Assembly (NCBI GenBank): GCA_007695365.1 | Contig: REDV01000057.1 | Span: 1-49,860 of the forward strand | DNA length: 49,860 nt | Source: Cryomorphaceae bacterium | GTDB taxonomy: Bacteria; Bacteroidota; Bacteroidia; Flavobacteriales_D; SKUL01 | Direction: 5' to 3' | Part shown: piece by piece, positions 2,414 to 46,439 of the stretch | Layout of the letters: every line of letters begins with the position of its first letter | Numbering within the stretch: the first letter of the stretch is position 1 | Notes under the pieces: model-generated | Told to the model about the DNA's origin: nothing | The model's input: only the letters and a program-made list of their open reading frames with translations | The model's database searches: none | Position numbers and translations under genes: made by a program

Positions 2414-2926
2414 ATGAAAACAGCGCTGATTTGTGTTCTGCTTATCGCGGCTCCATGGCTCACAGGTTCACCGCCGGTACACGAGGTGTACGTAAGCCTC
2501 GCTCAAATTGAATACAACCCCGAAGCCCATACCCTGGAGGTTGCGCTCAAGCTCTTTACCGACGACACCGACCGTTGTGTAGGCCGCAGGTTTCGGGAGA
2601 ACCTCCGGCTGGGCGAAGCCGATGAGCACGCGCAAAGCGATTCCCTTTTGATGGCCTATGTAGACGAGCATTTCCAGCTTCAATGCGGAGAAGTAAGGCT
2701 TCATCCGCGCTACTACGGCAAGGAGGTAAGCATTGATGAAACATGGGTTTATTTTGACTACCCCATTGAATGTGAACCCGGAGTCGACTTAAAAGTGAGC
2801 AACCGCATTTTTACGGAAGTGTTTGTGGCGCAGGTGAATCTGGTAAAATTCGAAGGGCCGGGTGTTCAGGCGCAAAGCCTTCAACTCACCCACGATCAAT
2901 ACCGCGGAACGCTGCAACTGCCATGA
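2414..2926 (+). CDS. Exported DUF6702-family protein
   Basis: The predicted product has 170 residues and starts with a clear signal peptide (MKTALICVLLIAAPWLTGS). The mature part resembles DUF6702 proteins of Bacteroidota: the opening VHEVYVSLAQIEYNPEA is followed by alternating beta-strand-like segments and a conserved YYGKEV stretch. The function of the family is unknown. The start at 2414 is chosen over 2384 because of the signal peptide and because the minus-7 box at 2401-2408 lies between the two. Its stop overlaps the nth start by 4 nt (ATGA), so the two genes are translationally coupled. Members of this family often lie beside M1 peptidase genes, and here the M1 gene is the divergent neighbour. 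Confidence 0.8.
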   Translation: MKTALICVLLIAAPWLTGSPPVHEVYVSLAQIEYNPEAHTLEVALKLFTDDTDRCVGRRFRENLRLGEADEHAQSDSLLMAYVDEHFQLQCGEVRLHPRYYGKEVSIDETWVYFDYPIECEPGVDLKVSNRIFTEVFVAQVNLVKFEGPGVQAQSLQLTHDQYRGTLQLP

Positions 2927-3573
2927 CCAAAAAAGAGAAAGCAGCTTTTGTGATGGAGCAATTGGAGCGTCTGTACCCTGAAACGCCCGTGCCGCTCAAC
3001 CATGTTGACCCCTATACCTTGTTGGTTGCTGTGCTGCTCAGCGCACAATGCACCGACGCCCGTGTAAACCAGATCACGCCATTGCTTTTTGAACGCGCCG
3101 ATAATCCGCACGACATGGTGAAACTCACGGTGGATGAAATCAGGGAAATCATCAAGCCCTGCGGGTTGAGTCCGGCAAAATCCAAAGCCATTTACGGATT
3201 GTCTGAAATCATTCTGGAGAAGCACGGCGGAGAGGTTCCGCAAACTTTTGAGGAGCTTGAGGCGCTGCCCGGTGTGGGACACAAAACAGCATCCGTGGTG
3301 ATGGCCCAGGCGTTTGGTGTGCCGGCTTTTCCGGTTGATACGCACATTCACCGCTTGATTTACCGCTGGGGACTGAGCACCGGCAAAAGCGTTGAACAAA
3401 CCGAAAAAGACTGCAAAAAGCTCTTTCCGCGAGATAGCTGGAACAAGCTGCACCTGCAGATTATCTTTTACGGCCGCGAGTACTCTCCTGCCCGGGGGCT
3501 GGACCTCAACAAGGATTTCATTACGGCAGCCATCGGGCGGAAGTCGGTGATTCAGAAGGCTGGGAAAAAGTAG
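2923..3573 (+). CDS. nth: Endonuclease III (DNA glycosylase/AP lyase) without Fe-S cysteines
   Basis: This is a base-excision-repair glycosylase of the HhH-GPD superfamily that removes oxidised pyrimidines and cleaves the abasic site. The helix-hairpin-helix LPGVGHKTASVV contains the catalytic Lys, and the catalytic Asp lies in PVDTHIHRL. The length of 216 residues is normal for the family. The usual C-terminal C-x6-C-x2-C-x5-C cluster that binds [4Fe-4S] is absent. After FYGREY the chain runs SPARGLDLNKDF with no cysteine, and the only Cys residues in the protein are elsewhere. The gene overlaps the upstream DUF6702 gene by 4 nt. Activity as a glycosylase is expected, because the catalytic residues are intact. 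Confidence 0.93.
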   Translation: MTKKEKAAFVMEQLERLYPETPVPLNHVDPYTLLVAVLLSAQCTDARVNQITPLLFERADNPHDMVKLTVDEIREIIKPCGLSPAKSKAIYGLSEIILEKHGGEVPQTFEELEALPGVGHKTASVVMAQAFGVPAFPVDTHIHRLIYRWGLSTGKSVEQTEKDCKKLFPRDSWNKLHLQIIFYGREYSPARGLDLNKDFITAAIGRKSVIQKAGKK

Positions 3574-42460: not shown

Positions 42461-43045
42461 TCAACGTATTTCAGCGTTTGACACGAATTCTATTGCTTCA
42501 GGGTTTTGGATAACAAACCTTTCTACTTCCTCGTAAGAATCCAAATTCAAATCATCGGGAATTTGAGCTTTTTTCAAAACAAAAAAACGATACCCTAACT
42601 GAACAGGATCATTTTGATTACCGTAAGGAACCCCTCCATCACTTCGTCTCATATATAACCAGAGGCGTCCATTGCCCGCTACAGCAAAATAATGCTTCAC
42701 ATACACACTACCGCTATTCCAATAATGATTGTGCGGCAATGCCACGAATTGTGCACTTGTAGTGACCGTATTAAGCATGAAACCAACTACCGTGTTATTA
42801 TTAAGATTAATGGGGGGAAATTGTGAAGTTGTGGTTTGATACTGATATACCCCATTACTTTGCCACGCAAATTGATTCAAAGGTGGCGTTACATCGTAAT
42901 ACCCTAAGAGGTTCGATGCACCAGCCGGCCCCGGAGGACCTTGCTGGCCTTGCGGTCCTTGTGGCCCTATCTCACCACCTTTTGAGCAAGAAATAAGAAT
43001 GATTGCCGAGAAGATTGCGAGTAAAATTGATTTGTTCGTTTTCAT
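42461..43045 (-). CDS. Collagen-like lipoprotein
   Basis: The 194-residue product has a lipoprotein signal (MKTNKSILLAIFSAIILISC) with the lipid-bearing Cys at position 20. It is followed directly by seven Gly-x-y triplets (GEIGPQGPQGQQGPPGPAG and on), a short collagen-like stalk. A C-terminal globular domain of about 150 residues is beta-rich, with segments such as VGFMLNTVTTSAQFVALPHNHYWNSGSVYVKHYF. This layout is common in Bacteroidota outer-membrane lipoproteins of unknown function. The start at 43045 is set by the lipobox. Confidence 0.83.
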   Translation of the reverse strand: MKTNKSILLAIFSAIILISCSKGGEIGPQGPQGQQGPPGPAGASNLLGYYDVTPPLNQFAWQSNGVYQYQTTTSQFPPINLNNNTVVGFMLNTVTTSAQFVALPHNHYWNSGSVYVKHYFAVAGNGRLWLYMRRSDGGVPYGNQNDPVQLGYRFFVLKKAQIPDDLNLDSYEEVERFVIQNPEAIEFVSNAEIR

Positions 43046-43493
43046 GACTTTTGGTTTTTTAGTGAATGATTCATTTGAACACTCCAAAAGTCGGAAGCAA
43101 GCCTTTTAAGCTTGAGCGCAGAAATACTTGAATTGGCATATGAGTAAAAATACGTGATCGCTTACTGCCATATAAAAAGGTCAAAAGGTATACGACTTCT
43201 ATGGCGCATTCACATGCGCTCCCGTAAGCCCTGAATAAGGCAACCCGCTCATCTTAATACCAATTCAACGTGGAGAATCACACACAATCATCTCGAGTCG
43301 TCCTTGCCGAATTAACAAGTGGCTTCCCGCATCAGCCCAATATTAAATACTGAAAGGGGCGGAGTGTTGAGGCCTGTGAGGGTTAACACATAAACACGTT
43401 TGGCCCAAAATATTTATTGGCTTCGGCGAATTGCTTAACCCGGGTTTAACTTTCCTTAAAGTGGTTTCACTAAATCCAGCCTCCTACAGATGG
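43046..43493. other. 448-bp intergenic stretch
   Basis: No gene, RNA structure or clear promoter is visible. The DNA is A+T-rich relative to the core genes. It separates the collagen-like lipoprotein from the two UVR-like repeat genes. Confidence 0.4.
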
Positions 43494-44354
43494 CTAAAAC
43501 TTAAACCCAACTATAGCTCCCACAATAACCGACTCAAGATTGTATCCAAAAGGATTGGAGTAAATAACAGTTGCTCCGAGATCAAAAAAGGAAAACCTGA
43601 ATTTCATTTGTGGCGAGACACAAAGTCCCATCCTCACCTGCTCCATAATCCCAAAGTAATCTAAGAATATGTTGGTTCCGCCAAGAAGAGTGAACTCAAT
43701 TCCTGATTTTCGGGTAAATGCACCAGCCCATGTCAAACCAATGTTGCCAATGCCCAACTGAGCGCCCCAATCGCTGCCAATCGCAGAAATATACATCAGA
43801 TCCAACCCTACTCTTGATCTTCGCTCTTTCTCACCAAAGAAAAACTTTGATCCGATTCGCCCACCACCAGCAAAACTGAATCCAGGCCTTAATCCAGAAC
43901 TAACACCTCTAACATTCCAATGGTCTATCCCTCCAAATAATCCGTTGATATAAAAACCACTTTTCGTAGCCCTGTACCAGGTTAGGTTGTTTAACGGCAC
44001 CCATCTTGGGGTTGCTGTTGATTGGCTCGCGTCATCAGAAGTTTGCTCCGTCAATTTTCTTTCAGGCCCAGGAGCCTCCGCTTTAACCCTGGGAGAAGCT
44101 TTCTGATTGGTGCCATCCAACTTTTCTTTTAACTCTGCTGCACGAGCATAGTCTTTTTGATCAATGGCATCTTTTATTTGTAATCTGAGTTCTTTTTCGC
44201 GCTTTAGTTTCGCCGCAAGCTCATAGTCCCCGCTGCTGACAGCCTCACTCATTTCCCGTTCAATCTGAGCCAACCTTTCTTCGTTGCTAATCTGGGCGCT
44301 TAAAGAACCCACCGTCACAACCAATGACACCAGTATGAGAACAATAATTTTCAT
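43494..44354 (-). CDS. Exported protein with UVR-like repeats and beta-barrel-like domain
   Basis: The 286-residue product has a signal peptide (MKIIVLILVSLVVTVGSLSA). Two helical hairpins follow (about residues 28-82): EREMSEAVSSGDYELAAKLKREK and KDAIDQKDYARAAELKEKL, which match the UVR (UvrB/UvrC interaction) motif pattern although the protein is exported. A low-complexity linker leads to a beta-rich domain (about 125-286) with alternating aromatic strands and C-terminal Phe, resembling a small outer-membrane barrel. It follows the similar gene at 44380-45294 after 25 bp. I do not know a family with this architecture. Confidence 0.8.
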   Translation of the reverse strand: MKIIVLILVSLVVTVGSLSAQISNEERLAQIEREMSEAVSSGDYELAAKLKREKELRLQIKDAIDQKDYARAAELKEKLDGTNQKASPRVKAEAPGPERKLTEQTSDDASQSTATPRWVPLNNLTWYRATKSGFYINGLFGGIDHWNVRGVSSGLRPGFSFAGGGRIGSKFFFGEKERRSRVGLDLMYISAIGSDWGAQLGIGNIGLTWAGAFTRKSGIEFTLLGGTNIFLDYFGIMEQVRMGLCVSPQMKFRFSFFDLGATVIYSNPFGYNLESVIVGAIVGFKF

Positions 44355-44379
44355 GTTGTAAATATTAAATGTTGACTAA

Positions 44380-45294
44380 TTACCGGAGAGTGAAAGCGAA
44401 AAATTTATCTCCGTTCTTAAAGGCATATTGACCGGGCGCCAAACTGCTGTGGACCTTTATCTGGAAGATACCTTCGCCCAGCGATTCAAAGGAAATTTCT
44501 CTAAGATTGTCTGTAACCTGATTGGATGACCCGGCATACACAAAAGTGCGGCCTTCCGAGATGTGGGCGTATCGATTATTTCCTTTCACATCCAGCTTAA
44601 CAAGTTGAATGATATCGGAAGGATCCACACCCAAATCGGCACGAACAACAAAACTAAGGTCCTGCTTTGTTAATAAAATACGCGACTGCCGGCCAGCAAG
44701 CACAAAAGATGTGCGTCTGCCAGAAAATCCACCGTACCCACCTCCGCTTGACTTAAACTGGCCATTTACTTTTTCAAGACTGCTTACAGAACCATCCATT
44801 TCCCTTTTATACACCTGGTTGTAAAACTCAGGCACTTGAAGGCGCAAGGGCTGCCCGGTTTCATTGGTCGGATAGTAATAGTCATCTTCAAGTGCAACTT
44901 GTGGTGAACCATTGTGCCACTCCGTTAAACTTGATGCCTCTGGAAATATCCCGTCAATTTCATTCTGAATCTCTTGAGCCAGATGGTAATTCTCAACATC
45001 CAACGCCTCCTGCAGCCTTCTCTTCAACTCTGAATCCGAATTATCTGAACCGGATACCAGAAGTTCTCTAAGTTCAGCAGCCCTTATAAAATCTTCGTTC
45101 TGGATGGCTTTTTCAATTTCTTTACGCACATCACGCTCCTTAACCAGATTTGCTGCCCTGAGAAAGTCCTCATGTTGAACAGCAGCATCAATTTCCTGCT
45201 GGATGGCTGCCAATCTCTTCTGATTTTCTGTAGCCTGAGCCAATGCAATCTCCAGTGTAAATATCAAGCCTAAAAAAATAATTATTGTCTTCAT
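44380..45294 (-). CDS. Exported protein with three UVR-like repeats
   Basis: The 304-residue product has a signal peptide (MKTIIIFLGLIFTLEIALA). Three UVR-like helical hairpins follow: EIDAAVQHEDFLRAANLVKER, EIEKAIQNEDFIRAAELREL and LQEALDVENYHLAQEIQNEI. The remainder (about residues 130-304) is beta-rich with segments such as SRILLTKQDLSFVVRADLGVDPSDIIQLVKLD and a sandwich-like C-terminus (GIFQIKVHSSLAPGQYAFKNGDKFFAFTL). It is the upstream partner of the gene at 43494-44354, with the same N-terminal repeat type but a different C-terminal domain. Function is unknown. Confidence 0.8.
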   Translation of the reverse strand: MKTIIIFLGLIFTLEIALAQATENQKRLAAIQQEIDAAVQHEDFLRAANLVKERDVRKEIEKAIQNEDFIRAAELRELLVSGSDNSDSELKRRLQEALDVENYHLAQEIQNEIDGIFPEASSLTEWHNGSPQVALEDDYYYPTNETGQPLRLQVPEFYNQVYKREMDGSVSSLEKVNGQFKSSGGGYGGFSGRRTSFVLAGRQSRILLTKQDLSFVVRADLGVDPSDIIQLVKLDVKGNNRYAHISEGRTFVYAGSSNQVTDNLREISFESLGEGIFQIKVHSSLAPGQYAFKNGDKFFAFTLR

Positions 45295-45500: not shown

Positions 45501-46379
45501 TCAGAACATCAGCTCTTTACTTTCCCGCTGGCTAACGCTGTTACGGAGTCCATAGAGCTGTTCGTGAAAGCAGCGTGCGAAGAGCTCATTCTGCTCTTCG
45601 GAAAGCGCATCCTTTCCACCTCCTGATACACCTTTACGAATAAACTGATTATACACCCGCTGGATTCCCTGCTGCTCGCCGAATTTATCTTCATGCTTCT
45701 TCATAAACTCAAAGCTGCATCTCTCTGTGATACGCTTCATGTCGCGTTCTGAAACCTTTACATTCAAAAAACCGGCAATTCTCAGGACAGAATTTTCAAA
45801 ATCGGAGAGCAAATCTTCGTAATGAACATGAATTATATTGAAGCCATGCCGATTCTCCATCCACTCTTTGGTATGACCAAACCAATTGTAATCGGAATCC
45901 GGAAGTATAAACTCATTAAAAACATCGGTGATGCTTTCATCTACATCATTGTAATTTCTGCGATGGTGCAACAGCGAGAGCGCAACATCTCTTCCATCCC
46001 GTACCACATGAATAAACCGAAATTTATTGTTGGGGTCAAACTTGTCATAGGGATCGTGCGACTTGAATACCCGTGGTGAGGCCAATGCGTTTACTCTGTC
46101 TGCTGAATGCCCCAAGACCGCTTCATTACTGAGCCAGGGCGACACATCATAAATATGATTAAACCGCATATTGCCGTCTGTGAGCAACTGATAAACTATC
46201 ATCTGCACCCAGGTAGTACCTGAACGCAGAAATGTGGAGATGTAAATATCAGATTCGCGCGAAACAAATTGTTCCAAATATCGCTGCTCCCTCACACTGA
46301 CCAAAGCTGCAGTACAACGATCGATTGCCTTATTAAGCAAGCCTTCAGCTCCTGTCAATACTTTTAGTTTAATGTTCAT
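45501..46379 (-). CDS. PAPS-dependent sulfotransferase
   Basis: The 292-residue protein matches the cytosolic-type sulfotransferase family (Sulfotransfer_1). It has the 5'-phosphosulfate loop TFLRSGTTWVQM (about residues 49-60), the 3'-phosphate motif FIHVVRDGRDVALSLL, and the C-terminal RKGVSGGGKDALSEEQNELF, which corresponds to the RKGxxGDWK motif of this family. It should transfer sulfate from PAPS to a hydroxyl or amine. The substrate cannot be read. The start at 46379 (MNIKLK) is preferred because the region before it (to 46439) has no family similarity. No PAPS synthesis gene is nearby. Confidence 0.85.
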   Translation of the reverse strand: MNIKLKVLTGAEGLLNKAIDRCTAALVSVREQRYLEQFVSRESDIYISTFLRSGTTWVQMIVYQLLTDGNMRFNHIYDVSPWLSNEAVLGHSADRVNALASPRVFKSHDPYDKFDPNNKFRFIHVVRDGRDVALSLLHHRRNYNDVDESITDVFNEFILPDSDYNWFGHTKEWMENRHGFNIIHVHYEDLLSDFENSVLRIAGFLNVKVSERDMKRITERCSFEFMKKHEDKFGEQQGIQRVYNQFIRKGVSGGGKDALSEEQNELFARCFHEQLYGLRNSVSQRESKELMF

Positions 46380-46439
46380 ATCGGGAGTAAAAAACCCAGG
46401 CAGAACCCGGGCCCTGCCTGAGTAAAACATACACATCAC

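Follow-up and report, generated by a model that had tools for sequence, protein, structure and literature searches.

Paired UVR-hairpin proteins, apparently exported and one of them a probable outer-membrane barrel, in a Cryomorphaceae bacterium

Known UVR proteins and how the locus compares

UVR hairpins are known from DNA repair and Clp proteolysis, where they serve as pairing modules. In the known cases, namely UvrB/UvrC, ClpC/ClpF, McsA, EXECUTER1/2 and the bifunctional nuclease (DUF151-UVR), a helix-turn-helix hairpin with the turn [DN][FY]xxA is used for head-to-head pairing, and the examples considered here are all cytoplasmic or plastid-stromal. The two adjacent genes discussed in this study, which we call A and B, encode proteins with the same hairpin and turn that likewise score above the Pfam UVR cut-off, but their hairpins form tandem arrays with shared helices, which sit behind apparent signal peptides and are fused to a probable outer-membrane barrel or to a putatively secreted beta domain. 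A further point of comparison is DISC1, whose UVR dimers resemble A and B in having at least two UVR hairpins per chain, which would build a multivalent hub, and in the same turn aromatic and +3 Ala (PMC13273187). DISC1 is, however, eukaryotic and intracellular with much longer coiled coils, and the likeness is drawn for the hairpin alone.

For the other half of protein B the closest described systems are OmpX, NspA and the transmembrane domain of OmpA, which agree with it in predicted strand number and topology and in the C-terminal Phe. B has no significant sequence match to them, and its putative periplasmic module is N-terminal and helical instead of a C-terminal OmpA-like domain. The N-terminal domain of Leptospira LA_0442/LA_0875 (NCBIfam NF047433) is relevant as well: such a module (E=5e-6, below cut-off) replaces the hairpins on barrel relatives in genome G199, whereas B has UVR hairpins. 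Finally, DUF2846 (PF11008) resembles the C-terminal domain of an A-type protein in genome G668, which has a homologue in genome G661; it was not found in A, whose C-terminal domain is unrelated.

The literature searched contained no description of exported UVR proteins or of UVR-outer-membrane-barrel fusions, in line with an earlier note on this DNA, which knew of no described system of this type. The parts are of known kinds; the combination and the compartment appear to be new.

The gene pair and its genomic context

Both genes lie in a stretch of 49,860 nucleotides of contig REDV01000057.1 (assembly GCA_007695365.1), referred to as the window. They are adjacent open reading frames on the minus strand, arranged head to tail: gene A (44380-45294, 304 aa) encodes an apparent signal peptide, three UVR hairpins and a C-terminal beta-rich domain, and gene B (43494-44354, 286 aa) an apparent signal peptide, two UVR hairpins and a probable 8-stranded outer-membrane barrel. 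The gap between them (44355-44379, minus strand) measures 25 bp, and no terminator-like site was found in it; the adjacency is operon-like. Upstream of the pair lies a sulfotransferase gene (45501-46439, minus strand; PF00685, E=2.5e-45). The product of the minus-strand gene at 42461-43087 is a putative lipoprotein (...ILISCSKGG...) in which a collagen-like GPQGPQGQQGPPGPAG stretch, short in length, follows soon past the Cys. When synteny was checked in a genome of the same genus (G001), the neighbouring kinase was found on a short contig, flanked by different genes.

The N-termini of A, B and all their relatives show, on inspection, a hydrophobic core and, after it, a Ser/Ala-Gln site, the usual kind in Bacteroidota signal peptides. 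In A the predicted signal peptide spans residues 1-19 (45238-45294, minus strand; ...IALA/Q; hydropathy maximum 2.77 over 12 residues) and in B residues 1-20 (44295-44354, minus strand; ...SLSA/Q region; maximum 3.35 over 12 residues). Judged by these features, A, B and all relatives look exported.

Beyond A and B, UVR matches in this genome are confined to UvrB, UvrC, ClpC, a bifunctional nuclease and a 157-aa protein; on inspection, no evident signal peptide was seen in any of these. A and B would therefore be each other's only exported UVR partners and, if they are indeed exported, each could pair solely with itself or with the other one. The gene of the 157-aa protein, a cytoplasmic UVR protein, lies on contig C100 (L006:1471-1944, minus strand) beside two genes with GIY-YIG-like nuclease domains on the same strand (1946-2491 and 2498-3049); the three possibly represent a UvrC-like nuclease that has been split, its UVR subunit being detached.

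UVR hairpin arrays

With a curated cut-off of 21.5 bits, the Pfam UVR family (PF02151) matches A at 33.9 bits (E=2.4e-8) in three stretches and B at 29.4 bits (E=6.1e-7) in two, while the best non-UVR family reaches at most 14.1 bits on either protein. All hairpins are encoded on the minus strand. In A, hairpin 1 (45145-45219; turn ED-F44..A47) and hairpin 2 (45061-45132; turn ED-F69..A72; 20.9 bits) are UVR matches that pass the cut-off together with their neighbours. Hairpin 3 (44953-45030; ENYHLA turn) scores 17 bits, alone below the cut-off, and is modelled as a helix-turn-helix of residues 85-99/103-116. In B, hairpin 1 (44202-44282; GD-Y44ELA47) reaches 30.5 bits (E=1.5e-6 in its own genome), and hairpin 2 (44118-44195; KD-Y69ARA72), the second Pfam stretch, has 12.2 bits, alone below the cut-off, with modelled helices 44-65/69-84.

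When the repeats were shuffled with their hydrophobic/polar pattern kept, none of ten shuffles gave a UVR match, which argues that they are not generic coiled coils; together with the Pfam scores this rules out chance or a generic coiled coil as their origin. The earlier note had described UVR-like repeats, three in A and two in B, directly behind signal peptides. Class and number of the repeats are borne out, and the signal-like N-termini of both proteins and of all relatives agree with the stated position.

Among eight exported proteins, as judged above, the distance from turn 1 to turn 2 is exactly 25 residues in every case, and the UVR-specific turn residues are well kept, the aromatic in 15 of the 16 turns and the Ala at +3 from it in 13. 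These positions match F598 and A601 of DISC1, which are highly conserved in the interface of UVR dimers (PMC13273187). Structure models of A and B predict helix-turn-helix elements (helices 44-65/69-82 etc.) with a pLDDT of about 57-78, and confidence is low outside the hairpins. Sequence searches gave no useful relatives among solved structures. Because helix 2 of hairpin 1 is at the same time helix 1 of hairpin 2, the array is predicted to form a zig-zag of helices 7-40, 44-65 and 69-84 with turns facing opposite ends. Such an arrangement would permit multivalent pairing.

Does the array have to pair at all? It could act in the periplasm as a helical spacer or stalk, holding the barrel off the peptidoglycan or contacting another envelope protein, its UVR likeness being due to descent or convergence. 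Such a role would fit the loss of the Pfam UVR signal in some members: A, B, the A-type and B-type proteins of G668, the A-type protein of G661 and the B-type protein of genome G135 lie above the cut-off, the B-type hairpins of genomes G180 and G025 below it. It would also fit the use of other N-terminal modules by barrel relatives (see below) and the comparison of the hairpin profile with the PDB, where the helical C-terminus of Jac1 (E=3e-4) matches better than UvrB (E=0.04). The amphipathic pattern by itself, however, yields no UVR call, and the positions best kept are those through which UVR domains pair, the aromatic and the Ala of the turn. Retention of these residues makes a mere spacer less likely, and we consider it improbable.

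Two different C-terminal domains

The C-terminal domain of B (residues 133-286; 43497-43958, minus strand) is probably a small 8-stranded outer-membrane beta-barrel, as suggested by the model, fold matches and family alignment. The model, of low confidence and built from a two-sequence alignment, places eight meander strands after the hairpins, with a pLDDT mostly below 50 in this region. Its top fold matches in the PDB are NspA, OmpX and OmpA, with E-values of 6e-3 to 1e-2 that are only suggestive. The protein ends in IVGFKF and thus in a C-terminal aromatic beta-signal; 9 of the 12 aligned barrels share the C-terminal Phe. A crude home-made index of strand alternation discriminates poorly here, B's value being reached by 72 of 500 shuffles and the C-terminal domain of A scoring above that of B.

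None of twelve relatives matches a barrel family above the Pfam cut-off, and this, together with the low model confidence, leaves room for a soluble periplasmic beta sandwich in place of the barrel, in which case both proteins would be soluble and either way of pairing discussed below could apply. The eight regular strands, the C-terminal Phe, the top structural matches, which are all outer-membrane barrels, and weak matches to OMP_b-brl and Legionella_OMP among the relatives speak against a sandwich, which we regard as quite improbable.

The barrel also occurs apart from the hairpins. A hairpin-less version adjoins the B-type genes in G180, where the pair of UVR-hairpin barrel and hairpin-less barrel genes is tandemly duplicated (L027:5383-8798), the UVR-barrel copies being 97% identical. 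G199 and G271 have versions with a different N-terminal module, which resembles NF047433, and more of them occur in G661 and G667; the similarity of the barrels exceeds shuffles by 12.7 SD. A Crocinitomicaceae barrel family with an N-terminal 'DGxxIxGKVxEI...QPDGPIRNI' module (L030:5317-6162, L031:5540-6400, L089:5291-6100, L090:4213-5025, L093:454-3584) has several paralogues per genome and is unnamed in Pfam.

The C-terminal domain of A (residues 135-304; 44383-44892, minus strand) is beta-rich in a low-confidence model and matches no Pfam family; DUF2846 in particular gave no match in this protein. The only plausible relative of this domain, a distant one, lies at the C-terminus of a secreted protein from genome G549; it scores 9 SD over shuffles, with E=0.006 when 296 genomes were searched, a level at which three chance matches are expected. 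An onward search from this protein yielded nothing further. The C-terminal halves of A and B do differ, as the earlier note had it; the note had not remarked on the probable barrel in B.

Distribution and co-occurrence

A search with the hairpin profile found arrays in 6 of the 399 genomes sampled from the order (best E <1e-22, next match 4e-7) and, among 292 genomes of the phylum, in none outside the order. A wide distribution in Bacteroidota was considered and rejected: in 292-296 genomes of the phylum the UVR matches were all single ones, in frames of about 200 aa, and were taken as bifunctional-nuclease-like. No viral or plasmid relatives were found.

Full-length B-type proteins are encoded in G025, G135 (Fluviicola sp. 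NORP2; Crocinitomicaceae, Flavobacteriales), G180 (two tandem copies) and G668. The present genome and G668 have an A-type gene next to a B-type gene, with gaps of 25 bp and 3 bp, respectively. In G668 the A-type gene again lies directly upstream and encodes a protein of 320 aa in which UVR hairpins are combined with a DUF2846-like C-terminus (PF11008, E=3.7e-6, below cut-off). This C-terminus and that of A score as shuffles against each other and are unrelated, so that what stays constant in the pair is the hairpins. The lone A-type protein of G661 has a C-terminal domain homologous to that of G668. A-type genes keep the hairpins and exchange the remainder; B keeps the barrel.

The pairing itself is patchy. 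B-type genes occur without an A-type gene in G025, G135 and G180, and G661 (89% complete) has an A-type gene without a B-type gene. The co-occurrence of the two proteins, which the earlier note had tied to a heteromeric envelope complex, holds in two genomes and fails in the other four. Since B-type proteins exist without A, a heteromeric complex cannot be the sole role of B, and where both genes exist such a complex is plausible.

As for the origin of the pair, the N-termini of A and B are 38% identical over residues 1-79, that of A is closer to the A-type protein of G661 (43%), and B is related over its full length to other B-types. A hairpin tree of about 65 columns shows no clear branching and therefore allows no firm statement on whether A and B arose from one gene by a simple tandem duplication, or on their co-evolution.

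A proposed docking module

How might the two proteins work together? We propose that A is held at the outer membrane by UVR pairing with the barrel protein B, a reading to which we give a probability of about 0.48. B would be a small beta-barrel of the outer membrane, its N-terminal part extending into the periplasm as a three-helix zig-zag that makes two UVR hairpins, and A a secreted periplasmic protein with three UVR hairpins ahead of its beta-rich domain. The hairpin turns of A and B would pair head-to-head, as in UvrB-UvrC, and B would thereby hold A to the outer membrane on its periplasmic side. The array would serve as a docking and oligomerisation module, with the domain behind it exchangeable in A-type proteins. 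Docking of A to B is favoured by the finding that two genomes have the genes side by side, each with another cargo domain on the A-type protein.

UVR domains also homodimerise, and the main rival reading has the hairpins drive self-association of B, and separately of A, into homodimers or larger assemblies of barrels, an A-B complex not being obligate. The solitary B-type genes, among them the tandem copies of G180, and the solitary A-type gene of G661 imply that self-association must be possible or even primary in some species. As a general account it is possible but less probable than docking, given that A and B are adjacent in both genomes that have them, with unrelated C-terminal halves on A.

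Taken further, the docking of A to B could be one instance of an envelope docking code, in which barrels with periplasmic UVR arrays recruit secreted partners with matching arrays and exchangeable beta-domains into multivalent extracytoplasmic assemblies; we hold this generalisation to be rather doubtful.

The general importance of the family is limited by its rarity and patchy pairing. Within these bounds, UVR hairpins that appear to be exported on a probable outer-membrane barrel point to a module moved to another compartment. Reuse of the motif for joining envelope proteins is probable, the pairing itself being a proposal, and pairing through the turn aromatic would offer a candidate docking rule for otherwise unnamed envelope proteins in Crocinitomicaceae and related bacteria.
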